Below the pieces are notes generated by a model, which was not told the DNA's origin, searched no databases, and saw nothing but the letters and a program-made list of their open reading frames with translations. A stretch of DNA of 64,000 bases from Bacillus sp. AFS006103. GTDB lineage: Bacteria; Bacillota; Bacilli; Bacillales; Cytobacillaceae. Position numbers and translations under genes: made by a program. The stretch covers positions 24,886-88,885 of the forward strand of contig NTXX01000078.1 of NCBI GenBank assembly GCA_002559145.1. Direction: 5' to 3'. Of this stretch, positions 4,919-55,528 are shown one piece after another. How positions within the stretch are numbered: position 1 is the stretch's first letter; every line of letters begins with the position of its first letter.

Positions 4919-5030
4919 CTCTTATCTATCAGGTTAAAAATAACCTGCAGGAATTAGCACCTTTTCAAGAAATATCTTGATGGTTGCCGGGCTTCATAGG
5001 GCCTAGTCCCTCCGCCGCTCTGGATAAGAG
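4919..5030 (-). promoter_or_regulatory. SAM-I (S-box) riboswitch upstream of hom
   Basis: Read on the minus strand, the segment has the S-box core: GAGCGGCGGAGGGACUAGGC followed by CCUAUGAAGCCCGGCAACC, then a P3/P4 region with GGUGCUAAUUCC. A perfect 8-bp P1 closes it (gataagag 5023-5030 with ctcttatc 4919-4926). A terminator follows and then hom, so SAM binding should stop transcription of hom. Confidence 0.95.
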
Positions 5031-5071
5031 TTTTATTTAATTTTTCATTAAATTTCCAAGTTATAAAGAGT

Positions 5072-5100
5072 ATTTTAGTTGAAACTAAAGTCATTGTCAA
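5072..5100 (-). promoter_or_regulatory. Sigma-A promoter of the S-box-hom unit
   Basis: On the minus strand TTGACA (5095-5100) and TAAAAT (5072-5077) are separated by 17 bases, about 40 bases before the riboswitch. Confidence 0.8.
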
Positions 5101-5187
5101 TATTATTTGAAATTTCTTTTTATTATTACGGATTTATCAAACTCAAAAAATAAACCCACCAAATGGCGGGCTTGGTAAAATTCATAA

Positions 5188-6564
5188 TTATCGCTGTAGT
5201 TTTCCCTCAGCTAGCTTGATTTGCTTTTCGACTTGCGCTGGCGCTGTTCCCCCAAAGCTATTTCGAACACCCACAACATGTTCTGGAGCCAATACTACAT
5301 ATATATCTTCCTCAAACAGTGGACTAAAGCCTTGATATTCTTCAAAACTTAAATCTAGTAAAAATTTATTCGACTGGATCGCATATAAAACTATTTTCCC
5401 AATAACTTCATGAGCATCACGGAATGGCAGACCTTTTCTCACCAAGTAATCAGCAATATCTGTGGCATTAGAAAAGTCATTATTAATCGCCTTACGCATT
5501 ACGTCTTTATTCACTGTCATTGTCTCAATCATTGGAGCTAGTAGCATTAATGATCCTTCAAGTGTTTCAACCGTATCAAACATGCCTTCCTTGTCCTCTT
5601 GTAGATCCTTGTTATAAGCGAGCGGCAATCCCTTCATGACTGTTAGCAAACCAATTAAATTACCATAGGTCCGGCCTGTTTTTCCACGCAGCAACTCTGG
5701 TACATCGGGATTTTTCTTTTGCGGCATTATACTTGAACCCGTACAAAACGAATCGTCCAACTCTATGAACTGAAACTCCTGGCTAGACCAAATGACCAGC
5801 TCTTCAGATAATCTGGAAATATGGGTCATGATAATTGAACCGATTGATAAAAATTCAAGAATAAAGTCACGATCACTAACTGCATCCATACTATTAGGAT
5901 AAACCGTTTCAAAGCCCAAAAGTTCAGCGACACGTTCACGATTGATTGGAAAAGTAGTTCCTGCCAATGCACCAGAACCAAGCGGAAGCCAATTGATACG
6001 CTTCAAACTATCCATCAATCTTTCCTTATCACGCTCAAACATCCAAAAGTAAGCCATTAAATGATGAGCAAAGGATACAGGCTGAGCGCGCTGCAAATGC
6101 GTATACCCTGGAATTAACGTTTGGATATTCTCCTTCGCTTGCTCTACTAATGCCTGCTGGACATCTTCTACTAATTTAATAAGCTCTGTCGTTTTTGTTC
6201 TTAAATACAGATGCATATCGGTGGCTACCTGATCATTACGGCTTCGCCCGGTATGGAGCTTACCACCCACGGGACCAATCTTTTCAATTAATAACTTTTC
6301 AATATTCATATGAATATCTTCATCTTCAACTAGGAACTCAGCCGTGTGGTCGTCAACCATTATCTTGATAGAAAGTAGTCCGTCCTTAATTTTATTAGCA
6401 TCCTCCATTGGAATAATACCGCACTCACCAAGCATTTGCACATGGGCAAGACTTCCGGCGATGTCTTCCTTAGCCAATTTTTGGTCAAAAGAAATTGATG
6501 CTGTAAATTTCTCAACTAGTTTATTGGTTTCTTTTGTAAAACGGCCGCCCCATAACTTCGACAT
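5188..6564 (-). CDS. argH: Argininosuccinate lyase
   Basis: This is the last enzyme of arginine synthesis; it splits argininosuccinate into arginine and fumarate. The 458-residue length is normal. It starts [10 protein letters not shown], has the [13 protein letters not shown] substrate motif near residue 105-117, and the fumarase/aspartase superfamily signature [12 protein letters not shown] near residue 280, including the mobile catalytic Ser loop. It follows argG by 65 bases, a gap that contains a hairpin, and is probably cotranscribed with it. No riboswitch or promoter is seen directly upstream. Confidence 0.97.
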
Positions 6565-6598
6565 GTAATTTCCTCCTTAGCCTTAGCCTAACAAGACA

Positions 6599-6621
6599 GC
6601 CCTCGAAAAGGATTCGAGGGC
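6599..6621 (-). repeat. Hairpin between argG and argH
   Basis: Perfect 9-bp arms gccctcgaa (6599-6607) and ttcgagggc (6613-6621) with a 5-base loop. No T-run follows on the minus strand, so it is more likely an mRNA-stabilising or partial attenuating hairpin than a full terminator. Confidence 0.55.
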
Positions 6622-6629
6622 AATCCGAC

Positions 6630-7841
6630 TTATTTTAAAATGGATTCCTTTTTATTCACTTCTGCATTGACCTTTGTTGGCAGACCCCAAATCTTGATAA
6701 ATCCAACCGCTGCATTATGATCAAACGCATCGCCTTTAGAATAGGTTGCAAGTTCCTCATTATATAGGCTATATGGCGACTTTCTTCCAACAACCGTATG
6801 ATTACCTTTATGAAGCTTGACACGAATCGTTCCGGTCACTGTCTTTTGCGTTTCATTAATAAATGCATCCAGTGCCGGTTTAATTGGGGAATACCAAAGA
6901 CCCTCGTAAATGATCTTAGACATCTGCTGTTCAACCTGTGTCTTAAATTGGCTGACTTCACGAGTTAATGTTAAAAATTCTAGTTCTTTATGGGCATTGA
7001 TTAAAATGAGTGCAGCAGGATTTTCGTACACTTCACGAGATTTAATTCCTACTAATCTATTTTCAATATGATCGATACGGCCAACACCGTGCTTGCCGCC
7101 AAGTGCATTTAGAGTTTCAATTAATTGGACAAGTGGAAGTCTTTCGCCGTTAAGGGCAACTGGTACACCCTGTTCAAATTCGATTTCCACATATTCAGCG
7201 GAATCAGGAGTTAGCTCAATCGGATTTGTCCAATCGAAGGCAGCTTCAGGTGCTTCAGCCCATGGATCTTCCAGAACTCCTGCCTCGCAAGCACGACCCC
7301 ATATATTTGCATCAATGGAAAATGGATTATCTAAATCGACTGGAATTGGAATTCCGTTCTCTTCGGCATATTTGATTTCTTCGTCACGAGTCATTCCCCA
7401 TTCACGAACAGGAGCAACCACTTTTAAACTTGGGTTCAAGGCTTGGATGGAAACTTCAAAACGGACCTGATCGTTTCCTTTTCCTGTACAGCCATGAGCA
7501 ACAGCAGTGGCACCTTCTTTTTCAGCTACTTCTACCAATAATTTTGAAATAAGCGGTCTTGATAATGCTGAGGATAATGGATATTTCCCTTCATACAAGC
7601 AATTCGCTTTTAACGCTGGTAAAATATATTCTTTTGCTAGTAATTCTTTTGCATCGATCATATAGGCTTTAATAGCTCCGACATTCAAAGCTTTATTTTT
7701 GATTGCTTCTAAGTCTTTTCCTTCGCCGACGTCAAGACCTAAGGCAATCACATCGTAGCCATATTTTTCTTGAATCCACTTTACTGATACTGATGTATCT
7801 AAACCGCCTGAGTAGGCTAGAATAATTTTTTCTTTTGTCAT
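6630..7841 (-). CDS. argG: Argininosuccinate synthase
   Basis: The enzyme joins citrulline and aspartate with ATP to give argininosuccinate. It is 403 residues, as usual. The N-terminal [14 protein letters not shown] is the PP-loop ATP-binding motif, and [14 protein letters not shown] is the second family signature near residue 115-128. The ATG has AAGAGGAG upstream. It lies 82 bases after argF; that gap has its own TATAAT element and an ARG-box-like site, so argGH can be transcribed separately from the argC-F operon. Confidence 0.97.
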
Positions 7842-7865
7842 GATTATGATTCTCCTCTTACCGTT

Positions 7866-7883
7866 TGTGTATTTTTATTCAAC
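7866..7883 (-). promoter_or_regulatory. ARG-box-like operator upstream of argG
   Basis: On the minus strand the site reads GTTGAATAAAAATACACA, close to the AhrC/ArgR ARG box consensus CATGAATAAAAATKCAAK. It is just downstream of a TATAAT element at 7894-7899, a position suited to repression by arginine-bound AhrC. No strong -35 is seen. Confidence 0.6.
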
Positions 7884-7923
7884 TGATAGAATTATTATAC
7901 AACAAGTCTCATAGAAAAGGAAA

Positions 7924-8904
7924 CTATTTTGCTAGTAAAAGTTTTAAAATTGCTTTCTGGGCATGAAGGCGATTCTCGGCTTCATCAAAAACGACTGAAT
8001 GAGATCCATCGATGACCTCTGCTGTTACTTCTTCGCCACGATGGGCTGGCAAACAATGCAAAAAGATAAAATCCTCCTTCGCCAATTTGCACAGTTCATC
8101 ATTTACTTGGAATCCTTGGAATGCCTTCAATCTTTTTTCCGTTTCTTCTTCCTGTCCCATACTGGTCCAAACATCTGTCACGATGACATCTGCGCCTTTA
8201 ACAGCTTCTAGCGGATCATTTGTAATCAGGAGTGAACATCCCGTTTGTTTTCCAACTTTAATAGCCTTTTCAGTAATATTACCATTTGGCAAATATCCCT
8301 GTGGACTCGCAATGCTAATATCCATTCCCACTTTCATTGCGCCCTCCATTAATGAATGGGTCATATTGTTATTGCCATCGCCAATATAACACATCTTTAA
8401 GCCAGACAGTTTTCCTTTATGCTCGAGTATCGTTAAAAGGTCTGCTAATACTTGGGTTGGATGCTGCAGATCTGTTAAACCGTTAATGACTGGTACTGTT
8501 GCATGTTCAGCTAATTCTTCCACTGAATCATGCGAAAAAGTTCTAATCATCAAACCATCCACATAACGGGACAGCACTTTTGCGGTATCGGAAATACTTT
8601 CTCCTCTTCCAAGCTGAATATCCTTTGAACTTAAGAAGATTGCGTGTCCTCCAAGCTGGAGCATCCCTACCTCAAAGGATACTCTTGTACGGGTGGAGGA
8701 TTTTTCAAAAATCATCCCTAAAACTTTTCCGCTTAAATACGGATGCGGTTTGCCTTGTTTTTGGAGTTTCTTCATCTCTATCGCTTCGTTTAGAAGATAG
8801 AGAATTTCATCTGCACTGAAATCAGACAGCTGTATAAAATCTTTTCCTTTAAACTTCGGCTTGTGAATATTACTTATCTCATTTATTTTAATCGCCTCAC
8901 CCAT
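7924..8904 (-). CDS. argF: Ornithine carbamoyltransferase, anabolic
   Basis: The enzyme makes citrulline from ornithine and carbamoyl phosphate. The carbamoyl-phosphate motif SSTRTRVSFE, the HPTQVLADLLT motif, the ornithine motif of the form DVWTSMGQE, and the HCLPAHRGEEV loop are all present. The protein is 326 residues from the ATG at 8904, which has GAAAGAGGTG upstream. Its first codons overlap the end of carB by 8 bases, so translation is probably coupled. Context in the arginine operon argues for the anabolic role. Confidence 0.96.
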   Translation of the reverse strand: MGEAIKINEISNIHKPKFKGKDFIQLSDFSADEILYLLNEAIEMKKLQKQGKPHPYLSGKVLGMIFEKSSTRTRVSFEVGMLQLGGHAIFLSSKDIQLGRGESISDTAKVLSRYVDGLMIRTFSHDSVEELAEHATVPVINGLTDLQHPTQVLADLLTILEHKGKLSGLKMCYIGDGNNNMTHSLMEGAMKVGMDISIASPQGYLPNGNITEKAIKVGKQTGCSLLITNDPLEAVKGADVIVTDVWTSMGQEEETEKRLKAFQGFQVNDELCKLAKEDFIFLHCLPAHRGEEVTAEVIDGSHSVVFDEAENRLHAQKAILKLLLAK

Positions 8905-11900
8905 GTACAGCACCTCTTTCTTTCAACTTATAATATTCATTCACAGATCGAACCTCAAAATCAGATAGAGACCCTTTTTCCAGACCGATTATCGCTTCAA
9001 TTGTATCTAAGTGTGTAAATACCGGTATCTTGTAGCGAACGGCATGTTCGCGAATTTGGTAACCAAATTTAATTTTATTACGCCCCTGATTCGGTATATT
9101 AATAACTGCCTTCATGAGCTGATTTCGGAAAAGTTCAATGACCTCATCTTCATTCTTGATCACTTTTTCAACCTGAATTCCAGCGCTTTGAAAATATGCA
9201 GCAGTCCCTGCTGTGGCCGCAATCTTGTATCGTTTTTTTACAAGGTCCTGGATAATTGGGAGAGATGCTTGCTTATCTCGATCAGAGATGGAACAGAAAA
9301 GATAATTTTCCTCGGTTTGCCCGCCGAGTGATGGAATAGATTTTTCAAGTGCCTCTTGATAGGTTGCTCCCATGCCAAGCGCTTCACCTGTTGATTTCAT
9401 TTCAGGTCCGAGCACATGGTCGACACCTTTAAGCTTACTTGATGAAAATACTGGTGTTTTCACTGAATAATAATCAGGTTCATCCAATAGTCCCTTTGTT
9501 GAACATAGGTCAGTGAGCATTTCTCCTAATTGAACACGCGTCGCCCATTCAATCATCGGGATTCCTGTGACCTTGCTCATGATTGGTACCGTTCTGGAAG
9601 ACCTAGGATTAACTTCAAGTACATTAACCAGATCTTCGTAGATAACAAATTGAATGTTCATGATTCCAATCACCGGTGCAGAGTTAGCGATTTTCCCAGC
9701 GTAGTCAATTAATGTTTCTTTCATATTTTCGGACAGTGAAACGGGCGGGAACACCGAAATACTGTCTCCAGAGTGGACCCCGGCTTTTTCGATATGTTCA
9801 AAGATTCCCGGTACGACGATATCTTTCCCATCACAAATGACATCAATCTCGCACTCTAGTCCAGGTAAATATTTATCTACTAATAATGGCCACATCGTTG
9901 TCTGCGAATTTTTTTCAAGCTGTATTATATACTGGCTCAATTCCTCTTCTGAAAAAATAGTAAACATGGATTGTCCGCCAATGACATAGGATGGACGCAC
10001 CAGGACTGGATAACCCAGTTTTGTAGCTGCTTCTATAAGTTCATCTGGATGAGTAACGGTTTGACCCACTATATGCGGTATGTCAAGGTCTTCAAGCAAC
10101 TGATAAAATTCTTTTCGATCTTCTAAGCGATCGACATTTTTTACAGAGGTGCCTAATATTTTGATCCCTTCTTCTTCTAAATCATGTGCTAAATTAATGG
10201 CCGTTTGCCCGCCAAACTGAATCAACACACCTTCAACCTGTTCTTTTTCGATGACATGAAGTACATCCTCAGCCGCTAGGGGCTCAAAATACAGACGGTC
10301 CGCAACAGAATAATCGGTACTAACTGTCTCAGGGTTATTATTTATCACCACTGCCTCGTAGCCCTTTTTCTTGATTGCTTTTGCCGCATGTACCGAACAG
10401 TAATCAAATTCAATCCCTTGCCCAATTCGAATCGGACCTGAGCCAATGACAAGAATCTTTTTCTTACCTGTAACCTCAACCTCGTCAAACCCGTGCCAGG
10501 TTGAATAATAGTAAGGTGTAACAGCATCAAATTCAGCTGAACAAGTATCAACCATTTTATAGCCTGGTTTCCAGTCCAGTTCCTTCCACTTGTCTCTTAC
10601 TTGTTTTTCTGGAATTGCATATATTTGCGATAGTAGCTTATCAGCAATATTATTTTGCTTCGCCTGCTTGAGTAAGGAAACGGGAACCTCGCTCCAATTA
10701 TAGGAGGTTAATAAAGTTTCTAGCGTTACGATTGAGCTAATTTTGTGTAAAAACCATGGATCAATCTCGGTCAACTGTTGCACTTTTTCAAGTGTGATAC
10801 CTCTTCTAAGCGATTCAGCAATGATGAATAAACGCTGGTCATTTGCCTGTTTAAGTAGTTCATTCAATTCCAGTTCAGCAATCAATTTATTTTTCTCGAG
10901 GCAAAGTCCATAAACATTCATTTCCATTGAGCGAATGGCTTTATTTAAGGCACCTTCAAAGGTCCGATCAATCGCCATAACTTCCCCGGTTGCCTTCATT
11001 TGCGTTCCTAAGGTCCGGTCCGCCTCAGGGAATTTATCAAAAGGGAAGCGAGGCAGTTTTACCACAATATAATCAATCGCTGGCTCAAAGGATGCAAAAG
11101 TATTCCCTGTTATTGGATTCACAATCTCATCCAAATGATACCCAACCGCACACTTCGCTGCCATCCGGGCGATTGGATAACCAGTTGCTTTCGATGCAAG
11201 CGCCGATGAACGACTCACCCGTGGATTTACTTCGATAATATAATACTGATTTGACTCCGGATGTAGAGCAAACTGGATGTTACAACCACCGATAATCTTA
11301 AGTTCTTTAATTACTTTAATAGAAGAATCACGAAGCATTTGATATTGAACATCTGTAAGGGTTTGCGACGGGGCTACGACAATCGAATCTCCCGTATGAA
11401 CACCCACCGGGTCCATATTTTCCATATTGCAAACAATGATGCATGTATCATTTGCGTCTCTCATGACTTCATACTCAATTTCTTTCCAGCCTTTGATACT
11501 TCTTTCAACTAATACCTGCTGAATGGGACTCGCTGCTAAACCTTTCTTAAGAACCGTTTCTAGTTCCTCATCAGTATAAGCAAAGCCGCCCCCATCCCCT
11601 CCAAGTGTATACGCAGGGCGAATAATAACTGGGAATCCAATTTCTTTTACGAAGGCTATGCCCTCCTCAAAGCTGTGAATGATAGCCGATTCAGGAATTG
11701 GTTCGCCAATTTGAAGCATCAAATTACGGAACTTTTCTCTGTCCTCCCCATTTTGGATAGACTCAACAGATGTTCCTAATAATTCAACATTGTATTTTTC
11801 TAAAATATTTTGTTCATAAAGTTGCACGGTTAAATTTAATCCAGTTTGGCCGCCTAGTGTACCAATAATTCCATCAGGTTTTTCTTTCTTGATGATCTTT

Positions 11901-12124
11901 TCAATGGTTTCAACGTTAAGCGGTTCTATATAGACCTTGTCAGCTACGGCTTCATCGGTCATGATGGTCGCTGGGTTATTATTAATTAAAACAACTTCGA
12001 TTCCTTCTTCTTTCAAGGCTATACATGCCTGCGTGCCTGCATAATCAAATTCTGCCGCTTGCCCAATGACAATTGGACCTGAACCAATCACTAGTACTTT
12101 TTTTAAGCTTTTATTTAATGGCAT
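8897..12124 (-). CDS. carB: Carbamoyl-phosphate synthase large subunit, arginine-specific
   Basis: This 1075-residue protein has the expected tandem duplication. Each half carries an ATP-grasp fold with the entry motif VIGSGPIVIGQ (near residue 11) or VIGSGPIRIGQ (near residue 560), and GGQTGLNL or GGQTAINLA. EVNPRVSRSSALASK and EVNPRSSRTVPIMSK mark the metal sites. The C-terminal methylglyoxal-synthase-like domain, with AATAGTAAYF, is present. It uses ammonia from CarA to make carbamoyl phosphate. The start overlaps carA by 14 bases. Its place between argD and argF indicates the arginine-specific isozyme, not the pyrimidine one. Confidence 0.97.
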   Translation of the reverse strand: MPLNKSLKKVLVIGSGPIVIGQAAEFDYAGTQACIALKEEGIEVVLINNNPATIMTDEAVADKVYIEPLNVETIEKIIKKEKPDGIIGTLGGQTGLNLTVQLYEQNILEKYNVELLGTSVESIQNGEDREKFRNLMLQIGEPIPESAIIHSFEEGIAFVKEIGFPVIIRPAYTLGGDGGGFAYTDEELETVLKKGLAASPIQQVLVERSIKGWKEIEYEVMRDANDTCIIVCNMENMDPVGVHTGDSIVVAPSQTLTDVQYQMLRDSSIKVIKELKIIGGCNIQFALHPESNQYYIIEVNPRVSRSSALASKATGYPIARMAAKCAVGYHLDEIVNPITGNTFASFEPAIDYIVVKLPRFPFDKFPEADRTLGTQMKATGEVMAIDRTFEGALNKAIRSMEMNVYGLCLEKNKLIAELELNELLKQANDQRLFIIAESLRRGITLEKVQQLTEIDPWFLHKISSIVTLETLLTSYNWSEVPVSLLKQAKQNNIADKLLSQIYAIPEKQVRDKWKELDWKPGYKMVDTCSAEFDAVTPYYYSTWHGFDEVEVTGKKKILVIGSGPIRIGQGIEFDYCSVHAAKAIKKKGYEAVVINNNPETVSTDYSVADRLYFEPLAAEDVLHVIEKEQVEGVLIQFGGQTAINLAHDLEEEGIKILGTSVKNVDRLEDRKEFYQLLEDLDIPHIVGQTVTHPDELIEAATKLGYPVLVRPSYVIGGQSMFTIFSEEELSQYIIQLEKNSQTTMWPLLVDKYLPGLECEIDVICDGKDIVVPGIFEHIEKAGVHSGDSISVFPPVSLSENMKETLIDYAGKIANSAPVIGIMNIQFVIYEDLVNVLEVNPRSSRTVPIMSKVTGIPMIEWATRVQLGEMLTDLCSTKGLLDEPDYYSVKTPVFSSSKLKGVDHVLGPEMKSTGEALGMGATYQEALEKSIPSLGGQTEENYLFCSISDRDKQASLPIIQDLVKKRYKIAATAGTAAYFQSAGIQVEKVIKNEDEVIELFRNQLMKAVINIPNQGRNKIKFGYQIREHAVRYKIPVFTHLDTIEAIIGLEKGSLSDFEVRSVNEYYKLKERGAVHG

Positions 12125-45686: not shown

Positions 45687-47810
45687 TTAAAATGTTAGTC
45701 CATGACCAAGTTGATAGATATTACCATCGCTATCTTTATATGCATAGGTAAGTCCTTTAGGCATATATTTGTCCTTGTCATAGCCTGGTACATCATTTCT
45801 TGACACGCAATCTCCATTTTCATCAACCGCAATGACTGCTTCACTCGCTGGTAATGTTAAAGGTAAAACACCTACCGGACGGCTATTGCCTGCAATTACC
45901 TCATAATGTGCCTTGTAGTAAGTATCGTATCCTGCGATTAAGACATCTGCAAGAGGTTCAACATTACCAAGGATCCAAGGTAGAATGACATTCACGCTTA
46001 TGATTACTTTTCCACCACGAATATGGATACTGTCCGCTACTTCCTTTAAATGGTTCATACCAGTCAAAGTCGTTTCTTGATAGGTAGTACCATCCAAAGC
46101 GGATACCGTTTTATCTTCACAGATTTCAAGTTCTAATAGTCCTGGTGTCGCATTGAAATAAGCTCCGGATTTTGGACTTAAAAACAAGAAAGCTATGTCA
46201 GCTTCTTCATGGTTATCGGTCAAAGTAAATTGACCAAGCTCTTGACATTCCTGTCTTGCTTTTTCTGTATAAGAAGTGGCCCTCTCCGGTTCCTTATGGA
46301 ACACCTCTACATAAACCTTCTTACCCTCAAGCTTTTCACCTGTTAATGGTAAGGTTTGATTGTGATTTTTGAGCACGGTTACTGATTTTTTATGCGCTTC
46401 ATATGCCGCTTCCCAGTTAACTGGATTTTTCACTGCTTCAGTAGCCTGGTCGGGTGAAACATAGGTACGATCATCAAATAATCCTAAAGCAAACATTTCT
46501 GAAAGGAGACGTACATTTGCTTCATTGATACGCTCTTCACTAATCCAACCATTTTCGATCGCTGTTTTAAGGTTTTCAATATCATTCGTGTCAGAAATAA
46601 GATCTGTCCCCGCATTAATCGCTTTAGCAAAGCGTTCCGCCTCACTTAAGGTTTCAACGCCCCAGCTCATTTTACTTGTGACACCGCTGTCGCTATTTAT
46701 ATAGCCTTTAAACCCTAATTTTTCTCTTAGGATCTTATTTAAGAAATAATCATTAAAAGTAAAACCAACCTCTTCGAAAGGAATGACTTCCCCTTCAAAT
46801 TCTTGTTCCACACTTTTCCTAATACTAGGAATCGAATAATATGGCATCATGGAAGAAGTCCCATGTTCTACTGCTGCCCGAAATGGAGGCAGGTGATACT
46901 TTTCTAGGCTTCCTTGAGTTGGGTATAGGTTCCATTTCCCCTCTTCATAATGGGGATCAAATCCGTTTTCCCTTGGTCCACCGCCTGGAAAATGCTTGGT
47001 CGTCATTGAAATACTATGATTTCCAAGGGTCTTCCCTTGAAAGCCGTCAATGATACGGCCAATTGCATCAGTAATAAATTCTGGGTCTTCACCGAATGTA
47101 CCATATATCCGCTGCCATCTCGGGTCCGTAACAGTATCCGCCATATACATATATCCTTTTCTTAAACCCACAGCATCCCACTCATCATGAGCAATTTGGG
47201 CGAATTGGCTAATAAGGGAGGCATCACCGCCATTTTTGATATCGCCCTTTGCCGCTGCAGCAAGTCCTAGCGTTCCAGGCCATGTGGAAAAAATCCCAGC
47301 CGCATCATTCATCCCAAAAATGAATTCTGTATTTTCGTTTCTTGAATTCGATGCGATTAAACACGGAATACCAAGACGTGACCCCTCACATACTTCATTC
47401 ATGGTATTCACCCATTCTGCCATTTCAGATGGGCTCCAATTGTCTCTTAGAATAAAGTGGCGCAAATGCATGTTTTCAATCGTATGCGTTGTACCATATA
47501 CTTTTGCCAAAGCAAAAATTGTCTCGCCCTTTTCGACAATCCCTTCATCCAACAAACCATCATGGCTTGTCTTACTCTTATCTTTTTGAGAAAGACCCAT
47601 TTGGCGAGTATTAATAAGCATCATCCCGACTTTTTCATCAATATTCATCAATGAGACAAGGTTCTCTGCGCGTTCTCCCGGACTTAAACGCCAGTCCTTA
47701 TAAGGTTCTAATTTCCCATTGTTATTTAAATCTTTAAATTTTAATCCATCCACTTCAATGATGTTCTTGACTCTGACTTCTAAGTTCGGTTGTTTATGCT
47801 TCTGTTCCAA
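45687..47810 (-). CDS. Glycoside hydrolase family 3 enzyme (beta-glucosidase-like)
   Basis: A 707-residue GH3 protein. The N-terminal TIM barrel has SMTTKHFPGGGPRENGFDPHYEEG with the KHF and GPR-type motifs, and GFKGYINSDSGVTSKMSWGVE with the catalytic Asp in NSDSG near residue 370. The C-terminal alpha/beta sandwich follows, with VTVLKNHNQTLPL and KVIISVNVILPWILGNVEPLADVLIAGYD. No signal peptide, so it probably acts on imported oligosaccharides or glycosides. TTG start with GGAGG seven bases before. Whether it is a glucosidase, xylosidase or other cannot be told. Confidence 0.92.
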   Translation of the reverse strand: MEQKHKQPNLEVRVKNIIEVDGLKFKDLNNNGKLEPYKDWRLSPGERAENLVSLMNIDEKVGMMLINTRQMGLSQKDKSKTSHDGLLDEGIVEKGETIFALAKVYGTTHTIENMHLRHFILRDNWSPSEMAEWVNTMNEVCEGSRLGIPCLIASNSRNENTEFIFGMNDAAGIFSTWPGTLGLAAAAKGDIKNGGDASLISQFAQIAHDEWDAVGLRKGYMYMADTVTDPRWQRIYGTFGEDPEFITDAIGRIIDGFQGKTLGNHSISMTTKHFPGGGPRENGFDPHYEEGKWNLYPTQGSLEKYHLPPFRAAVEHGTSSMMPYYSIPSIRKSVEQEFEGEVIPFEEVGFTFNDYFLNKILREKLGFKGYINSDSGVTSKMSWGVETLSEAERFAKAINAGTDLISDTNDIENLKTAIENGWISEERINEANVRLLSEMFALGLFDDRTYVSPDQATEAVKNPVNWEAAYEAHKKSVTVLKNHNQTLPLTGEKLEGKKVYVEVFHKEPERATSYTEKARQECQELGQFTLTDNHEEADIAFLFLSPKSGAYFNATPGLLELEICEDKTVSALDGTTYQETTLTGMNHLKEVADSIHIRGGKVIISVNVILPWILGNVEPLADVLIAGYDTYYKAHYEVIAGNSRPVGVLPLTLPASEAVIAVDENGDCVSRNDVPGYDKDKYMPKGLTYAYKDSDGNIYQLGHGLTF

Positions 47811-48003
47811 ATTAATGCCTCCTAAACTTTTTCGAACAAAGTATTAAAAGATTGATTTTTTAAAAAATTATTTTGGGAAAAGATCTATCTTGATTACTCA
47901 TCGTTTTATTTTAGCGATAGGGATTCATTTTTACACATATTATTGCTCACAAGTTTTAAAACTTTTTTATAAGTATCGGAAATTCTTTAAAATAAAAGAC
48001 CGT

Positions 48004-48037
48004 AAAAAAATAGAAAGGCAGATGATTCTACCTTTCT
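48004..48037 (-). terminator. Terminator after the VOC-protein gene
   Basis: On the minus strand AGAAAGG and CCTTTCT form a 7-bp stem followed by ATTTTTTT. Confidence 0.75.
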
Positions 48038-48055
48038 CTTGCGATTATGTACTAC

Positions 48056-48451
48056 CTATTTTGCATTCGCATCGGGTTGATGAATTCCGATAATATTGCC
48101 TTCTGTATCAATATAGTATCCCTGCCAAGCCATACCAGGCAAAGCATATTTGGCCATTGCGACCTTGCCGCCATTCTCAATAATTTTTGCTTCCGTGACA
48201 TCGTAATTTTCCACACCCATTGTACATGCAAATCCATTTAAAGGTTGGTTTGGTTCTGGGGGAGGACCTTGACGTTGCATTAAAGCACCATTGATCCCTG
48301 GCTCATTCTCATCGCCGGTCACCGCTCCAAAGTACGGCATACCTGCATATTCGCTCCAGTCTTGAAATGACCAACCGAATACCTCACCATAAAACTTTTT
48401 CGCTCGTTCCATTTCACTCACATGAATTTCAAAATGCACTAATCTTCCCAT
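48056..48451 (-). CDS. VOC-superfamily (glyoxalase/bleomycin resistance-like) protein
   Basis: A 131-residue VOC protein: LVHFEIHVSEMERAKKFYGEVFGWSFQDW at the N-terminus, MPYFGAVTG, and YYIDTEGNIIGIHQPD at the C-terminus. The His/Glu metal ligand pattern is partly present (H6, and a C-terminal H in place of Glu). The best fit is the stress/antibiotic-binding VOC class of unknown substrate. The ATG has AGGAGG. Single gene with its own terminator. Confidence 0.85.
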   Translation of the reverse strand: MGRLVHFEIHVSEMERAKKFYGEVFGWSFQDWSEYAGMPYFGAVTGDENEPGINGALMQRQGPPPEPNQPLNGFACTMGVENYDVTEAKIIENGGKVAMAKYALPGMAWQGYYIDTEGNIIGIHQPDANAK

Positions 48452-48590
48452 AATGTCCTCCTATTTTTTCAAGAAAAAACATATCTGTAAAAACATAATG
48501 TGTAATTGACTATAATTGTCTATCATTATTATATCAGTAGTGGAATTATATTCAATTTTTATCAAAATATAGTACTTGGAATGAAATACT

Positions 48591-51500
48591 TTAATTATTT
48601 TGCTCAAGGCATCGATAAACCGCCATCATATCCCGTTTATTTAACTCACGAATACGATTGTAAATTGGAATATCAGCAACAGCTTCTGTATACAAGCTTT
48701 CAGCAACAACATCCCTAACTTTGCCCGTTAACCATGTTGCTACTGGTATGTCTTCAACCATTTCCTGGCGGCCTTCAGTATTGATACCACTTGCCTGACA
48801 ACTCACACATGGTATTGTTAATTTAAACACGCCATCATGGAGATTCTCTTCTGTAATGACTTTCTTCCCTTTACAGAATCGACATGGATAACTTTTAGTA
48901 ATTTTATTCATTTGAGTGACTATTTTTTTGTAACCAAATGCTTCATAAACATATGTTAGTTTTTTGTATTTTCCATTCGTGAAATACCTATCAATGATAG
49001 TTTCCCTTGTTTCATAGATAGTAGAAAAATCACAGATACTTACCTGATTATGGATGCTGATGGATTCGATATTGTCTTTAATGCTTCCCCAGAATGGTAA
49101 GACATTTTGTAATACCATTTCATAGCCTGTAAAGCTAGCGTGTTCCAATTCAAACATTTTCAATGCGACTTGTGTTTCCCTTGTCAGCAAGGAGACATCT
49201 TCCGTCAAAGTCATATCGCCGCCAACAATAGATTTTAGCTTTACGAGTACAGGTAACTCACCAACTATTTGTAACACTTGATCGAGTGGCTGATTGATTA
49301 TTTCACGAATATCTGTGTCACCAAACGTAAGCTGTTTATGATGATTAAGTACCGTTCCATGACAAATCGGACAGGTAATCTTTTCTTTTGATGCTTTCAT
49401 TTTCTCTTTAATCACTGATTTTGAAATGACCATATACCCACCCACGATGGTATTAAAGCCTACCCAGGTCCTCTGTGTCTTGCCTGCTTTATCATAGAAT
49501 GTCTTTTCAAAATATCCGTACCAAAAAATATGCTTTTCCTCTTCTGACATCTCATTGTAGCTTTTCGTCAGATCAAACCCGAGCTCATTCTTAATTTCCT
49601 CAAATAGAAACTCTAATTTTGGATATTGATAATATTTTAATACTTCCATCACCTCAGGATAAAATAAGCCATCCCAGAATGGAACGGTTTTGTCCTTAAT
49701 GACAAGATCTTTATCAAATATATCAATCTTAAGGCGTCCTGAGCATGATGGACAATGATTGTCTTGTGAATAGAAATCGAAGCTTCTCGTATCTTTATTG
49801 GTCGGATGCGTCGCCACAATATGGTTGATCACACCGCCCAGTTCATAGAGAAAACTATATTGACTATACAAATGTCTTTCAAAATCTATAGCAATGACAG
49901 GTGCAATGGTGTCAGATTCGTATTCGCCGTAAATTAAACGAGCCATTGATGATAAGCTTTTTAAGATACCGCCCTTATAGACATTTTCTGCATTTTTAAA
50001 ATAGGCGATATGGTTTTCTTTTAAATAAGTAATCCCATTTTGCGCTTTGAGTGTCGAAGTGATATGCGATGGAAGTGCAATATCTTCCTTATTTTTAAGC
50101 TGGAAATATTCGTTATGACTGACAACTTCAAGATGAATGACAGGTTCAATCTTTCTTTTACCAAAATCAACGATAAAATCAGAGCTTTCTAACATATAGG
50201 GATTATGTTCAATCATCATGAGAGAAACTGATTCATCATTTAGTATTCCCCTGGCACTATCAATGAATTGATTTAAAATATTTTGTGATAAACCTTTTGA
50301 AGGTTCATCAAAAATGAAAAGTGTATGTGGGTTTCTTGAGTTCGCAAACAACTCCGAAACTAAATGAACACATTGAAATTCACCAGTCGATAATGTTTGT
50401 GTTTTTCTTTCTAATGTCAAATAACCTAGTCCCAGCTTAATTAGCAAACTCAACCGTTTATGTGCGATATCTTGATTTGGAAGTTCATCAATAATATCTT
50501 CAATCGAACGCTCGAATAGATCATCAATATCTTCACTATATTTTGTAATTTTCCTTTTAATATCAAGAAATGTCGCAACAGTTGAACGACTAGTAATCGA
50601 TTGGTTCCGATCTTGCCCGACCATTACTAGTTTGTCTTTGGGATAACGCTTCTGAAAATCTTTGGCAATACATTCATTGACTAGCGTAGATTTACCACAT
50701 CCGGATTCACCCGTAACGGTTACAAGTCTATTTTTGGGTATCTGGATTTCAGCCAGTTGAATATTACGGAAGTAAAGATCTTGAAAATGATAATAATCTG
50801 CTGGCACAGTCTGATTTCTTTCCCAAATGATTGGTTTGGGACGTGGTGATTCTTCTACAATTTCCCCACCATATTTCCCACTGCCGGGGCCAAAGAATAC
50901 TTGCTCATCCGTTGTATCTAGCACGGTGTCAGAATGATCAATGAACCAAATTTGGTTGTTATAGCCTAATTGTTTAATCTGTTCTAAAATTTTCAATAGT
51001 GTTTGGTGATCCAGACCAACCGAGATTTCATCAATAATAATTACGGTATTTTCACTGGTTGCCATGAATTCTGCTAAGTAAAGTCGCGTTAATTCTCCAC
51101 CAGATAATGTTCCCATGATTCGATTTAATGTTAAGTAGCCAATATTCATATTGATGATATTTTTGAGAATATGCTGTTTCGCTTCGCTACTATGTAAAAC
51201 TTCTGCTAGTGATAAAATAGATTCCATGCTTAAGTTGTTGATATCGGAAATACGATGGGGTTGATCAAATAATTCAATACTATATTGTTCAACTTCTTGA
51301 TTATAGCGCTTTCCCTTACACTTTTTACATTCGACATTTTTAGTAGTACCGCGTCCTTTACAATCCGGACACCAGCCTAATGGATTATTAAATGAAAAAA
51401 CTTCTGGAGAAAGATTATATTTTTCAGCAAGAGCCACACGAATCTCTGTAAATACGCCAGTATGTGTGCCAATTGTTGAACGCGGATTGGAAGAAATAGA

Positions 51501-51761
51501 TGATCTTCCCAGAAAAAGCACAAGTGGCATTTCTTCCATTTTGATAGCACTAAAATTGGTTTCCATTATATTAGGAAACAAATACTGATAATCAGCCTTT
51601 GGCAATAAGGAAACGAGACGCTTCTTGGATTCTTCCCCAATGGTTTGACAAAAAGTTGTTTTACCAGATCCGGACAAACCAGCAATTCCTAACGATTGAT
51701 CAGCCGGAAGTGCTGCATCTAATTTGTTAATATTGTTCGCAATTAATTGATTTATTTTCAT
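48591..51761 (-). CDS. UvrA-like double ABC ATPase with an extra C-terminal module
   Basis: The 1056-residue protein has two UvrA-type ABC cassettes. The first has Walker A GLSGSGKTT (28-36), SSNPRSTIGT (90-99), a zinc finger C131/C134/C145/C148, LSGGE (219-223) and Walker B IIIDE (241-245). The second has Walker A GESGCGKST (351-359), an altered signature LSTGE (457-461) and FDE (484-486). The UvrB-binding and insertion domains and the first zinc finger of canonical UvrA are missing from the first cassette. Residues about 630-1056 hold four more CxxC pairs (670/673, 797/800, 960/963, 985/988) and segments resembling the UvrA insertion and first zinc finger region. ATG chosen for its GGAGGAG. 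Damage recognition or drug resistance are possible roles; function unknown. Confidence 0.8.
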   Translation of the reverse strand: MKINQLIANNINKLDAALPADQSLGIAGLSGSGKTTFCQTIGEESKKRLVSLLPKADYQYLFPNIMETNFSAIKMEEMPLVLFLGRSSISSNPRSTIGTHTGVFTEIRVALAEKYNLSPEVFSFNNPLGWCPDCKGRGTTKNVECKKCKGKRYNQEVEQYSIELFDQPHRISDINNLSMESILSLAEVLHSSEAKQHILKNIINMNIGYLTLNRIMGTLSGGELTRLYLAEFMATSENTVIIIDEISVGLDHQTLLKILEQIKQLGYNNQIWFIDHSDTVLDTTDEQVFFGPGSGKYGGEIVEESPRPKPIIWERNQTVPADYYHFQDLYFRNIQLAEIQIPKNRLVTVTGESGCGKSTLVNECIAKDFQKRYPKDKLVMVGQDRNQSITSRSTVATFLDIKRKITKYSEDIDDLFERSIEDIIDELPNQDIAHKRLSLLIKLGLGYLTLERKTQTLSTGEFQCVHLVSELFANSRNPHTLFIFDEPSKGLSQNILNQFIDSARGILNDESVSLMMIEHNPYMLESSDFIVDFGKRKIEPVIHLEVVSHNEYFQLKNKEDIALPSHITSTLKAQNGITYLKENHIAYFKNAENVYKGGILKSLSSMARLIYGEYESDTIAPVIAIDFERHLYSQYSFLYELGGVINHIVATHPTNKDTRSFDFYSQDNHCPSCSGRLKIDIFDKDLVIKDKTVPFWDGLFYPEVMEVLKYYQYPKLEFLFEEIKNELGFDLTKSYNEMSEEEKHIFWYGYFEKTFYDKAGKTQRTWVGFNTIVGGYMVISKSVIKEKMKASKEKITCPICHGTVLNHHKQLTFGDTDIREIINQPLDQVLQIVGELPVLVKLKSIVGGDMTLTEDVSLLTRETQVALKMFELEHASFTGYEMVLQNVLPFWGSIKDNIESISIHNQVSICDFSTIYETRETIIDRYFTNGKYKKLTYVYEAFGYKKIVTQMNKITKSYPCRFCKGKKVITEENLHDGVFKLTIPCVSCQASGINTEGRQEMVEDIPVATWLTGKVRDVVAESLYTEAVADIPIYNRIRELNKRDMMAVYRCLEQNN

Positions 51762-51813
51762 AGCGCTCTCCTCCCCATTCTCTAACTCTAGTATTGCCAT
51801 GTTAGTACAACTT

Positions 51814-51845
51814 AAAAAGTACCACTAATATAATTAGCGGTACTT
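51814..51845 (-). terminator. Terminator between DUF4256 and UvrA-like genes
   Basis: On the minus strand AAGTACCGCTAAT and ATTAGTGGTACTT form a 13-bp stem with one mismatch, followed by TTTTT. Confidence 0.65.
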
Positions 51846-51908
51846 TAAAATCATTTTATACCTTTGGAAAATCCAGCTTGGCAAATACCACTCTTTTCCA
51901 ACCAAAAT

Positions 51909-52475
51909 TTAGACTCTTAGCGAACCTCGGAAACCCCTGGCAGCATAGTAGGATTCTGCTCCATTATGGTACACAAAGACAGTGTCGTAGCGACGATCAC
52001 AAAAGATAGCCCCACCTAGTTTTCTAATATTATCAGGCGTTCTCACCCAGCTTGATGTTTTAGTATCGAATTTTCCTAGTCTTTGCATTTCCCGGTATTG
52101 TTCTTCCGTTAAAATCTCAATACCCATGTCAGCAGCCATATCTAAAGCGTTGTTTTTTGGTTTGTGTTCTTTCCTTGACTCCAGTGCATCACGATCATAA
52201 CAAACACTTCTTCGGCCTTTAGGACTTTCCGCTGAACAATCATAAAAAATGTATTCGCCCTCCTGTTTATCATGATCGATAACATCCGGTTCACCGCCTG
52301 TTCTTTCCATTTCACAAAGCGACCACAGTTTTTCAGTATTTGTTTCTAGCCTTGCTTGTACATTAGCCCATTCAAGGTCTTTATGGCGATCCATGTTTTT
52401 CTCAAAACGGGCTTTTAATATTCTAAGTATTTCTTCATGTTGTTCTGGTGACAACATCCTTTTTTCATTGTTCAT
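51909..52475 (-). CDS. DUF4256 family protein
   Basis: The 188-residue soluble protein has the pattern of DUF4256: LSPEQHEEILRILKARFEKNM, LWSLCEMERTGGEPDVI, YIFYDCSAESPKGRRSVCYDRDALESRK, and a C-terminal GGAIFCDRRYDTVFVYHNGAESYYAARGFRGSLRV. The function of this family is unknown. The ATG has AGGAGG at normal spacing. It is separated from the UvrA-like gene by a terminator, so the two are probably not one operon. Confidence 0.85.
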   Translation of the reverse strand: MNNEKRMLSPEQHEEILRILKARFEKNMDRHKDLEWANVQARLETNTEKLWSLCEMERTGGEPDVIDHDKQEGEYIFYDCSAESPKGRRSVCYDRDALESRKEHKPKNNALDMAADMGIEILTEEQYREMQRLGKFDTKTSSWVRTPDNIRKLGGAIFCDRRYDTVFVYHNGAESYYAARGFRGSLRV

Positions 52476-52497
52476 ACTAAACCTCCTATAGATTTAC

Positions 52498-52509
52498 GGT
52501 GCCTGACAC
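52498..52509. repeat. GGTGCCTGACAC repeat copy
   Basis: The 12-mer ggtgcctgacac, upstream of the DUF4256 gene, repeats the motif seen at 26503-26515 and 33432-33481. Confidence 0.5.
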
Positions 52510-52580
52510 GGCCCGAAGTTTGATTATGTTTAATAACATTATATCCAATTAGTTTGCGAGAATATCAAACTTAGACGGAG

Positions 52581-52619
52581 AAAAAAACGAAAGGGAGTGG
52601 GCACAAGCTCCACTCCCTC
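52581..52619 (-). terminator. Terminator after the LysM-VanY gene
   Basis: On the minus strand GGGAGTGG and CCACTCCC form an 8-bp stem, followed by TTTCGTTTTTTT. Confidence 0.8.
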
Positions 52620-52658
52620 TTTTAGCTTCGTATTTTAAAACAATCAGTTTTGAACACC

Positions 52659-53825
52659 TTATCTATAAATAGAATTCATTCGATTAATAGGAAGTTGACC
52701 GAGATACTCTTCCAAGGTTATGTTTTGACTAGCTATTTCCTTTGCTGCCTCTTTTCCTACATAACGAATATGCCAAGGCTCATATTGATACCCCGTGATA
52801 CTTTCTTTTCCTTTTGGAAATCGTATAATAAAACCAAAATTAGGTGCGTTTTGTACTAACCACTTTCCTTCTTTTGTATCACCAAGGGATTGGCTGAGAG
52901 AATTACCTACTGATGGACTGGAAATATCTATGCTTAAGCCCGTTTGATGTTCGCTTTCGCCAGGTCGAGCACTAACCTGATTGGCGTTGGGATTCGCTTT
53001 TATATTTCTTGAGAAAAGATCAACTTGATAGTCGTAAGAACGGTAGCCCGAAACACCAGTTAAATTGATATTGTCCCTCTCCGCTTTAGCGAATAGAGCC
53101 TCAACCGCCTTAGCCGCTTCTGGTTGCATCAGTTTTTGTTGTCGGAATTCCGAAAAGTAAAATGGAATATCTGTTACAGTTAAATTTTTAGGGACATATG
53201 ATGGAAGAAGAGCATTAAATTTATTTACTAACACCATTATATTGTCGGGATTTTGTACTACTTTATAGTTTGAAGATATAAGCTTTTGTAAAATTTCTTT
53301 TGTTTTGGGTCCATATACGCCATCAGCAACTAATACTTCCGGGTATTTTTTTTGTAAATCCAAGATAATATTTGAAGTTATAGGACCATAGACACCGTCC
53401 GGTTGAATATTAAAACCCATAGATACCAATGCCTGCTGTATTATTACTACATTGGGACCATGGCTTCCAATACCGAATACTCCCTCCGGCAGGGTTATTC
53501 CAAGTGGTGCAGGGATTAATAATGTTTGTCCTGGATAAATTAAATCACTTGTTAAATGGTTTGCATTCTTTAAATTCTGCACAGTAGTATTAAATTTATT
53601 AGCAATTGTATATAAGTAATCTCCTGGTTTAACAACGTAAGATATAGCTTCTGGAATAGTTAACGATTGTCCAGGATATATTGAATCGCTTATTAAATGG
53701 TTTGCATTCTTTATATTTTGAATGGTTGTATTAAATCTTTTTGCAATTGAATACAGCGTATCTCCCTTTTGCACAACATAATTTATGGTTCGATACCCTG
53801 CAGTCCAAGTGTTATTCCAAAACAC
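52659..53825 (-). CDS. LysM-peptidoglycan-binding VanY-type D-Ala-D-Ala carboxypeptidase
   Basis: The 388-residue protein has two LysM domains (about 16-60 and 62-106; NYVVQKGDTLYSIAKRFNTT and SYVVKPGDYLYTIANKFNTT), a PGB1-type peptidoglycan-binding domain (about 113-180), and a VanY peptidase (about 215-380). The zinc and catalytic motifs are SGYRSYDYQVDLF, SEHQTGLSIDI and EPWHIRYVG. It trims the stem peptide of peptidoglycan. No signal peptide or helix is seen, which is unusual for a wall enzyme and suggests release on mother-cell lysis or a spore-associated role. GTG at 53825 has GGGAG eight bases before it; a GTG nine bases earlier is possible. Confidence 0.88.
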   Translation of the reverse strand: MFWNNTWTAGYRTINYVVQKGDTLYSIAKRFNTTIQNIKNANHLISDSIYPGQSLTIPEAISYVVKPGDYLYTIANKFNTTVQNLKNANHLTSDLIYPGQTLLIPAPLGITLPEGVFGIGSHGPNVVIIQQALVSMGFNIQPDGVYGPITSNIILDLQKKYPEVLVADGVYGPKTKEILQKLISSNYKVVQNPDNIMVLVNKFNALLPSYVPKNLTVTDIPFYFSEFRQQKLMQPEAAKAVEALFAKAERDNINLTGVSGYRSYDYQVDLFSRNIKANPNANQVSARPGESEHQTGLSIDISSPSVGNSLSQSLGDTKEGKWLVQNAPNFGFIIRFPKGKESITGYQYEPWHIRYVGKEAAKEIASQNITLEEYLGQLPINRMNSIYR

Positions 53826-53938
53826 ATACCTCACTCCCTTAATAAATCCTACATAATAAGGTATGTATAATAAATGAGGGAGTGTTAAATTATTGGGATC
53901 CTCTTTGTAGCACAGAAAATCAATGTGTATATCAAAAA

Positions 53939-55528
53939 CTAAACTTCAATCTCCATTAACGCTTCTGCGCATTTTATCCCGTCAACAGCACTTGACGTGA
54001 TCCCGCCAGCATAACCTGCACCTTCACCACAAGGGTATAACCCTTTGATGTTCGTCTCAAATGTCAGCGGATTTCGCTTAATTGTAACTGGTGATGAACT
54101 TCGGCTTTCGACAGCTGATAAAACGGCATCATGTTTGATAAAGCCCGCAAGTTTTTTATCCATGACTCGCAACCCGTCTTTTAAACTATCAACGATAAAA
54201 TCATCAAGACATTCTCTTAGGTCCGTTGGTGTAACCCCCGGGGTATAAGTTGGGATAATATCGCCAAGTTGTTTACTACCCTTATTTTCTAAAAAGTCGC
54301 CGACCAATTGTACTGGTGCAAAATAATTACTGCCACCAAGTTCAAAAGCTTTTCGCTCCAGTTTTCTTTGAAACTCTATAGCCCCCAAGATATCTCCATT
54401 AAAATCATTTGGTGTGATAGAAACAAGCAAGGCACTGTTCGCATTTTCACCACTTCTTGCGCTATAGCTCATACCATTTGTAACTACAGCATTTTTCTCC
54501 GATGCGGCAGCAACAACATGACCTCCAGGGCACATACAAAACGTGTAAACACCACGTCCATTGGGAAGATGGGCATTCAACTTATACTCAGAAGCACCAA
54601 GAAGTGGATTATTTGCAAAGCTACCGAATTGCTGTAAATCGATGTCTTTTTGGTGATGTTCAATACGCACACCTACAGCAAAAGGCTTCGGTATCATGTC
54701 TACACCTAAATCCTTTAACATATAAAAAGTGTCTCGAGCACTATGCCCAATCGCCAATACCACCGCATCGGTTTCTATTGTCTCAGACTCTCCTAGTCTT
54801 TCTAGCAGCACGCCTCTAACTACACCATTTTCGATAATAAGTTCCTTCATTTTCGTTTCGAAACGCACTTCCCCACCCAGTCGTTCGATTTTTTTACGAA
54901 TATTTCTAACAACATTTATCAAAATATCCGTTCCAATATGGGGCTTTGATAAATAAGCGATCTTACTAGGAGCACCCGCTTCTATGAATTCCTTTAATAT
55001 TTTTGGAATTCTAGTATTTTTTACCCCTGTTGTTAATTTCCCATCTGAAAATGTTCCTGCTCCACCTTCACCAAATTGGACATTACTACTCGATTCAAGT
55101 TCGCCGTCTTTCCAAAATTTATCAACAGCCATTTTTCTTCGATCGACATCCATTCCCTGCTCTACTACAATTGGGTTTAATCCATGTTCTGCTAATACTA
55201 AGGCACAGAAAAGACCAGCAGGTCCACTGCCTACTACTACAGGACGGGTGGTCTTTTGTTTTTTCTTGATCACATACTCTGATGGTTCAAAGGAAGAAAC
55301 ATTTTTTATTCCTACATACAATTTCTCGTTTTCAATTTCAACATCAACTGAATAAACAAGCTGAACATTATTTTTTTCCCTGGCATCAATCGACTTCTTA
55401 GATATACTGAAAGACGATATTTTCTCCTGTTTGACCTTAAGTATTTTTTTGACTTTTTGAGCTAAAAGTTCCTTTTCCTTACTTGGGTCAAAATCAGCAC
55501 GAAGCTTAATATTACTTATTCTTAACAT
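53939..55528 (-). CDS. Uncharacterised FAD-dependent dehydrogenase (COG2509)
   Basis: The 529-residue flavoprotein has an N-terminal domain of about 90 residues (MLRISNIKL start), then the FAD Rossmann motif VVGSGPAGLFCALVLAEHG with VVEQG. The phrases FGEGGAGTFSDGKLTTG, MCPGGHVVAAASEKNAVVTNGMS and the C-terminal PCGEGAGYAGGITSSAVDGIKCAEAL define COG2509. The reaction is unknown. The inner ATG is favoured by AGGATGG upstream and by the start of family members; an ATG 12 bases earlier is possible. Confidence 0.88.
   Translation of the reverse strand: MLRISNIKLRADFDPSKEKELLAQKVKKILKVKQEKISSFSISKKSIDAREKNNVQLVYSVDVEIENEKLYVGIKNVSSFEPSEYVIKKKQKTTRPVVVGSGPAGLFCALVLAEHGLNPIVVEQGMDVDRRKMAVDKFWKDGELESSSNVQFGEGGAGTFSDGKLTTGVKNTRIPKILKEFIEAGAPSKIAYLSKPHIGTDILINVVRNIRKKIERLGGEVRFETKMKELIIENGVVRGVLLERLGESETIETDAVVLAIGHSARDTFYMLKDLGVDMIPKPFAVGVRIEHHQKDIDLQQFGSFANNPLLGASEYKLNAHLPNGRGVYTFCMCPGGHVVAAASEKNAVVTNGMSYSARSGENANSALLVSITPNDFNGDILGAIEFQRKLERKAFELGGSNYFAPVQLVGDFLENKGSKQLGDIIPTYTPGVTPTDLRECLDDFIVDSLKDGLRVMDKKLAGFIKHDAVLSAVESRSSSPVTIKRNPLTFETNIKGLYPCGEGAGYAGGITSSAVDGIKCAEALMEIEV

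Follow-up and report, generated by a model that had tools for sequence, protein, structure and literature searches.

A gene on the minus strand of a 64,000-nucleotide stretch of Bacillus sp. AFS006103 DNA (GenBank assembly GCA_002559145.1, contig NTXX01000078.1, positions 24,886–88,885 of the forward strand; hereafter the window) encodes a 1056-amino-acid UvrA-like protein that in all probability consists of two tandem UvrA units whose losses complement each other, giving the architecture of a single-chain pseudo-dimer. Alignments and predicted structures showed that the N-terminal unit (N-unit) retains both ATP sites and has lost the UvrB-binding domain, the insertion domain and zinc module 3, and that the C-terminal unit (C-unit) has lost all recognizable ATP-site motifs and retains the insertion domain and zinc modules 2 and 3. 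The tandem reading is favoured because an entire UvrA is matched by the N-half in a single alignment, and most of a second UvrA, with its parts in the canonical order, by the C-half. Residue numbers follow the longest open reading frame (ORF) at the locus (48591–51800, minus strand, 1069 aa; P0001), in which M14 is the preferred start (Table 1).

Each of the two cassettes of the N-unit carries a Walker A, a signature, a Walker B and an H-loop, with key residues invariant or nearly so in a 73-row alignment of diverse sequences, in agreement with an earlier reading of the DNA alone (the original prediction) that two UvrA-type ATP-binding cassettes (ABC) come first and that the second signature is LSTGE. 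A profile from the 73 rows aligned the N-half with whole canonical UvrA in one alignment (7–901, E = 6.1e-67) and, again in one alignment (15–723 of 769, E = 1.8e-83), with a class of compact UvrA-like proteins of about 750 aa, the closest profile for the N-unit. This compact class comprised 15 sequences from P0197–P0228 (the named ones from Clostridium and Enterococcus, with a Bacteroidales metagenome-assembled genome (MAG) in the same listing), each of which consists of one unit and bears four CxxC and two LSxGE motifs. In a whole-protein scan, the first cassette (residues ~9–317) matched TIGR00630 608–917. Only 24 residues separate NPRSTIG (105–111) from SFNN (136), where the UvrB-binding domain would be, and PF17760 (UvrB-interaction domain) was found in neither half at E ≤ 1e-5, with the canonical control P0213 matching at 7.2e-37. 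The original prediction had the first cassette lacking the UvrB-binding domain, the insertion domain and a zinc finger; the two domains are indeed absent, but a four-cysteine module (144/147/158/161) is kept.

The C-terminal segment alone matched TIGR00630 264–481 (E = 6.3e-16), as expected from the order, zinc module to signature I, that had been proposed for it. With an alignment of 81 Bacillales sequences (80 relatives plus the window), hhalign placed residues ~629–860 on canonical UvrA 229–455 (E = 2.4e-14). Against the compact class, the C-half gave a single 363-column alignment over 134–636 that runs through zinc module 2, insertion domain, signature I region, zinc module 3 and signature II (E = 9.9e-17); the match to canonical UvrA was about equal (E = 7.5e-16), and the insertion region alone was nearer to canonical UvrA (1.2e-17 versus 3.6e-13). 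By hhalign, residues 941–1069 fell on zinc module 3/signature II of compact UvrA (E = 2.8e-8) and of canonical UvrA (2.0e-4), and within the compact class these last 129 residues matched that region better than zinc module 2/signature I (1.1e-4). The profile–profile score of the C-half with compact UvrA was 138.5 (≤ 26.8 for reversed or permuted columns); including the second C-half score (133.2) and that of the last part with the compact class (61.8), all reversed or permuted controls stayed at or below 29.1. PF17755 (UvrA_DNA-bind) matched residues 696–782 with 25.2 bits in the full protein and 26.7 bits in the segment alone (gathering score 23.2); at E ≤ 1e-5 it was found in the C-half only, and the canonical control carries both PF17755 and PF17760. 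Consistent with this, the cysteine pairs of zinc module 2 are 123 residues apart in the C-unit (C686–C810) versus 10 in the N-unit (C147–C158).

The four C-terminal CxxC pairs of the original prediction are real: 683/686, 810/813, 973/976 and 998/1001 are kept in 81/81 Bacillales and 73/73 diverse sequences, and with the N-unit module all twelve zinc cysteines are invariant in both sets. Its worn signature region was assigned to residues 871–881 as signature I, although by sequence alone this gave no significant match, and residues 861–940 as a whole likewise had none in profile comparison. In 221/221 full-length relatives (1035–1075 aa, many of them close kin of one another) the N-half has two Walker A motifs and the C-half lacks them, and the same distribution of LSxGE motifs was found in 216/221, with five small departures. 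The 443 LSxGE motifs of these relatives comprised 219 LSGGE, 210 LSTGE, 5 LSNGE, 5 LSSGE, 2 LSLGE, 1 LSCGE and 1 LSAGE. Per-segment omega against nine relatives was 0.065–0.234 (two values fall outside: 0.38 for residues 561–668 in one close pair, and another that was undefined); at the sequence level, all segments, including the C-unit, are evolving under purifying selection. A Foldseek search with the C-half model returned 27 matches at E ≤ 0.001, all of them UvrA, in support of a UvrA-like fold. The top-ranked structural match of the N-unit was the Ecm16 structure 7SH1, tied with several UvrA entries.

A divergent relative bears on how this architecture arose. The homologue at locus L118 (genome G842; ~1104 aa; 45% and 38% identical, in two pieces, to protein P0238) has eight CxxC pairs, which give each unit both a zinc module 2 and a zinc module 3; its additional zinc module 3 lies inside cassette 2 of the N-unit and is without counterpart in the window protein and P0238. 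Possession of both modules in both units supports descent from two UvrA, as relocation would give one set. The original prediction had instead proposed that the zinc/insertion module of cassette I was excised and moved to the C terminus of a single UvrA, and the insertion domain is indeed present in the C-half and missing from the N-unit; but the N-unit has a zinc module 2 of its own, and zinc 3 follows in canonical order as a further module of the C-half. Relocation, which we regard as very improbable, was rejected on the basis of the eight-pair relative and the collinear alignments with whole UvrA.

Several observations weigh against descent from two collinear units. The AlphaFold models were only fair (predicted local distance difference test, 61.9 for the full length and 73.4 for the C-half; predicted template modelling score, 0.45 and 0.51), TM-scores of the C-half in Foldseek were low (query-normalized ≤ 0.38), and superposition of the C-half as a whole unit on 9ga5_A gave a root-mean-square deviation of 10.4 Å over 416 residues. 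Several of the top-ranked structure comparisons (9gxn_A, 3ux8, 9gy7_A and 9ga2_B) instead placed the first cassette of the C-half onto cassette II of UvrA. Residues 561–668 had no significant match on their own in profile comparison, and the last part scored only 37.5 against canonical UvrA (reversed control, 26.6), a weak single comparison. In the N-unit, cassette 1 alone fits the nucleotide-binding domains (NBDs) NBD-I and NBD-II about equally (4.7e-40 versus 1e-37, with the order reversed in a second comparison), so that its assignment to NBD-I rests on collinearity.

The window protein is neither a canonical UvrA, nor a double-length chlamydial UvrA, nor a plain Ecm16-type protein, as judged from domain content and profile scores. 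It shares with canonical UvrA the fold, the within-unit domain order and the zinc/insertion module, and differs in the absence of the UvrB-binding domain and in the placing of ATP and DNA-reading functions on different units; its TIGR00630 score (307 bits in 4 stretches) is below the cut-off of 729.8. With NF001885 (PRK00635; 1809 positions), which we take to describe the double-length chlamydial UvrA, about two UvrA in one chain, it scored 168 bits (cut-off, 3054); that protein has ~1800 aa, whereas the window protein has 1056 aa and one ATP-dead unit. UvrA2 of Deinococcus radiodurans (2VF7/2VF8) is not known as a tandem and keeps its ATP sites. The Ecm16/DrrC class is similar in having two ABC cassettes, zinc module 3, an insertion domain with zinc module 2 on either side, and no UvrB-binding domain. 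Two complete ATP sites are present in the window protein too, both in the N-unit, but the insertion domain, which in Ecm16/DrrC lies in the ATP-bearing NBD-I, is in the ATP-dead C-unit, and zinc module 3 is absent from the ATP-bearing NBD-II of the window protein and of P0238 (L118 has it). Ecm16 (792 aa) has every part within a single unit and is a homodimer, whereas the window protein has them split over two units of one chain. Among the papers listed by searches of open-licence literature, none described a tandem UvrA in which one unit is ATP-dead.

Searching with the C-half retrieved 523 proteins at E ≤ 0.001 (the best 120 of the 523 all ≥ 76% identical) and with the N-half 7495 at E ≤ 1e-10 (the lower part of the best 120 being other UvrA). 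The distant member P0174 retrieved 5032 at E ≤ 1e-20; the best 120 of these, 44–60% identical with the query set aside, are almost all 1041–1069 aa and include proteins of Intestinibacter bartlettii, Campylobacter devanensis and Treponema and Synergistaceae MAGs. Among the matches listed, most annotations of named members read ‘ATP-binding cassette domain-containing protein’, ‘excinuclease ABC subunit A’ or something similar. With the window's genome counted each time, full-length members occur in 29/61 genomes of the genus (E ≤ 1e-200), 11/398 of the class (C-half 71–80% identical) and 3/398 of a phylum sample, in which 13 further weak matches (26–28% identical, frames of 930–963 aa) were ordinary UvrA. 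A divergent query against a largely repeated phylum sample found members in 3/393 genomes, G842 among them; in the genome groups searched, G842 was the one divergent member. Eighty Bacillales loci (80 of 146) share 76–97% identity across genera. A midpoint-rooted tree of 35 rows has two clades, one of Bacillales, at the base of which a single metagenome row branches, and one of gut/anaerobe members, in which Campylobacter, Treponema and Synergistaceae rows intermix; the long-branched L118 stands apart. The family is patchy in Bacillales and also occurs in gut anaerobes with assignments to several phyla; the sequences are most simply read as the result of horizontal spread, the names Treponema and Synergistaceae resting on MAGs.

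Ecm16 has the parts found in the window protein: it lacks a UvrB-binding domain and has an insertion domain, zinc modules 2 and 3 and two ATP sites. An Ecm16-like function is favoured. According to the Ecm16 study (PMC10192343), DNA binding by this UvrA-like protein, which lacks the UvrB-binding domain, depends on the insertion domain; the affinity is higher for echinomycin-loaded than for plain DNA, binding is coupled to ATP hydrolysis, and a UvrB knockout was protected as well. By analogy, we give an even chance to the proposal that the window protein is a single-chain pseudo-dimer with divided labour that removes DNA ligands or damage independently of UvrB, as an Ecm16/DrrC-like protein would; protection from DNA ligands as its function is rated slightly below even. 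In such a mechanism, the insertion domain and zinc module 3 would let the C-unit, in contact with DNA, sense a bound ligand or a lesion; grip and release would be driven by the N-unit as it binds and hydrolyses ATP. The DNA-bound natural product or lesion would then be stripped or exposed with no need for UvrB, the mode of action proposed for Ecm16 and DrrC of drug producers. This function is supported by the Ecm16 findings, by an ArsR-type regulator gene and an AHSA1/SRPBCC gene within 2 kb upstream on the same strand in 28/81 loci, and by the position of the L118 gene beside four radical-SAM (S-adenosylmethionine) genes. Counting against it, the window itself has no ArsR/AHSA1 pair, the radical-SAM context is that of a single locus, and none of eight L118 neighbour proteins (four radical-SAM, FkbM, U32-like, helicase and a 334-aa ORF) matched the 81 loci in tblastn at E ≤ 1e-5, the loci mostly reaching at least 7 kb on each side; the radical-SAM context is therefore not shared by the Bacillales clade.

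If 7998 is its start, the L118 gene overlaps the last radical-SAM gene at that gene's end; the same gene row also holds an FkbM methyltransferase gene, a U32-like gene and a dTMP-kinase-like gene. This arrangement, the patchy occurrence, the promoter-like block common to 24/81 loci and the established case of actinobacteria, in which UvrA-like self-resistance genes mark clusters for DNA intercalators (PMC10413001), are what one would expect if the protein conferred self-resistance or immunity against a DNA-acting modified peptide or other natural product, the lone Bacillales copies being acquired resistance genes. Confined as the context is to one locus, with its eight neighbours unmatched in Bacillales, peptide-immunity readings become less likely, and we consider this one unlikely. 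Somewhat more doubtful still is the broader proposal of an asymmetric pseudo-dimer family (ATPase motor plus ATP-dead DNA/ligand reader) that spans Bacillota, Campylobacterota, Spirochaetota and Synergistota (the last two from MAGs only) and serves in some hosts as the immunity gene of DNA-targeting radical-SAM peptides; if correct, such peptides could be sought by way of the gene.

The patchy, cross-phylum distribution would also suit an anti-phage defence ATPase that recognizes unusual or phage DNA, as would the HamB-like helicase gene downstream of the L118 relative and matches to the PADLOC model mad3 (PDLC04135). However, mad3 scored ordinary compact UvrA higher (230.5 bits for P0197 versus 117.2 for the window protein), so its match reports general UvrA kinship; the helicase is without match in the 81 loci, and the recurring neighbours of these loci were judged by eye. 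We regard defence as improbable. A role as an accessory damage sensor feeding ordinary UvrB/UvrC repair, suggested by the UvrA kinship and by the separate canonical uvrA of the genome (1499 bits), appears a shade less probable than defence given that PF17760 is in neither half and that LexA-like boxes were absent within 200 bp upstream in all 81 loci, a result on which SOS control was also rejected. Overall, the data suggest a little-known kind of DNA-protection protein shared by distantly related bacteria. Because every protomer of ordinary UvrA combines both ATP sites with DNA-reading parts, the roles of the protomers are hard to separate; with motor and reader split between the units of a single chain, one could test directly how ATP hydrolysis is coupled to the reading of damage or ligand. 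Protection from DNA-binding products, if confirmed, would extend this resistance class beyond actinobacteria and provide a possible guide to undiscovered DNA-targeting peptides.

Table 1 Features of the tandem UvrA-like gene and its upstream DNA (positions in the window; residues in P0001 numbering)
Feature	Position	Strand	Basis
Promoter-like block TTTAAG-17-TACTAG with CTAACATGG-type core	51788..51816	-	Common to 24/81 loci; consensus read by eye
Tandem UvrA-like gene, 1056 aa	48591..51761	-	ORF, relatives, conserved Cys
N-unit, residues 14–560, whole compact UvrA (NBD-I + NBD-II), both ATP sites kept	50121..51761	-	
Walker A of NBD-I, GLSGSGKT, residues 41–48	51657..51680	-	
Short zinc module 2 of N-unit, C144 C147 C158 C161, insertion domain missing	51318..51371	-	Conserved Cys
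Signature I LSGGE, residues 232–236	51093..51107	-	
Walker B of NBD-I, IIIDEIS, residues 254–260	51021..51041	-	
Walker A of NBD-II, GESGCGKS, residues 364–371	50688..50711	-	
Signature II LSTGE, residues 470–474	50379..50393	-	
Walker B of NBD-II, IFDEPS, residues 496–501	50298..50315	-	
C-unit, residues 561–1069, worn UvrA without ATP sites	48594..50120	-	Profile alignments, motifs, structure search
Zinc module 2 of C-unit (C683, C686, C810, C813) flanking insertion domain	49362..49754	-	PF17755 at 696–782
Worn signature I region, residues 871–881	49158..49190	-	No significant sequence match on its own
Zinc module 3 of C-unit (C973, C976, C998, C1001)	48798..48884	-	hhalign of 941–1069

M14 (position 51761) is very likely the right start, on the basis of sequence comparison: it is favoured because relatives are mostly 1055–1056 aa (best 120 of 523) and because the upstream in-frame ATG lies inside the conserved promoter-like block. 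Both observations fit the extent 48591..51761 that the original prediction had assigned to the gene. Its alternative, that a gene of canonical order had simply been misread, was not borne out; a misread or frameshifted canonical uvrA was ruled out by the canonical copy elsewhere in the genome and the many full-length relatives of the same form.

Directly downstream of the gene in the window lies a bleomycin-resistance-like VOC gene (48056–48451; Ble-like_N, PF22677), with related neighbours in 5/81 loci, and a DUF4256 gene is also a neighbour. Upstream, 52/81 loci, including the window, are without ArsR or AHSA1 and one has an AHSA1 relative only; one contig of the 81, L058, extends only 274 bases upstream. 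An inverted repeat ACAAC/GTTGT occurs upstream in 5/81 loci (shuffle mean, 0.14) and is therefore no family feature, and Rfam gave no match at the gathering threshold in 46000–54500. Among plasmids, 1/191 matching records covers ≥ 80% of the query, a Niallia taxi megaplasmid (the sole match of P0276 at E ≤ 1e-60). For the C-half, phage records gave no more than partial matches (9 records, 23–26% identity), and for P0238 none at E ≤ 1e-20; IMG/VR gave two weak partial matches (36% identity), one of which, L115, contained no tandem UvrA in 5000–12000 (ORFs ≥ 150 aa).

Some minor observations concern the surroundings of individual members. The region L118:388–8017, with its four radical-SAM, FkbM and U32-like genes running into the tandem UvrA gene, is a possible ribosomal-peptide cluster, and a 90-aa ORF at 2590–2862, which has no family match, could be a peptide precursor. 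Farther along (L118:12585–17190), a 334-aa ORF with no NCBIfam or PADLOC match is followed by a 1243-aa helicase matching PADLOC HamB models (best E = 2.1e-52); the two are possibly a Hachiman-like pair beside the tandem UvrA gene, the partner being putative. Because the mad3 model (MADS defence system) matches a compact UvrA strongly, automatic calls that rest on this model alone may concern UvrA-like proteins. Broken or partial copies of the family gene include two adjoining part-length frames (G871:C4:71523–74728) and a separate 100-aa frame that matches its last 89 residues (G666:C13:147551–147817). The upstream pair of L012 (L012:7124–7870) matches PF01022 (ArsR) and PF08327 (AHSA1), and in L020, L023 and L085 a single ORF of 250–257 aa with an ArsR-like start seemingly carries both parts.

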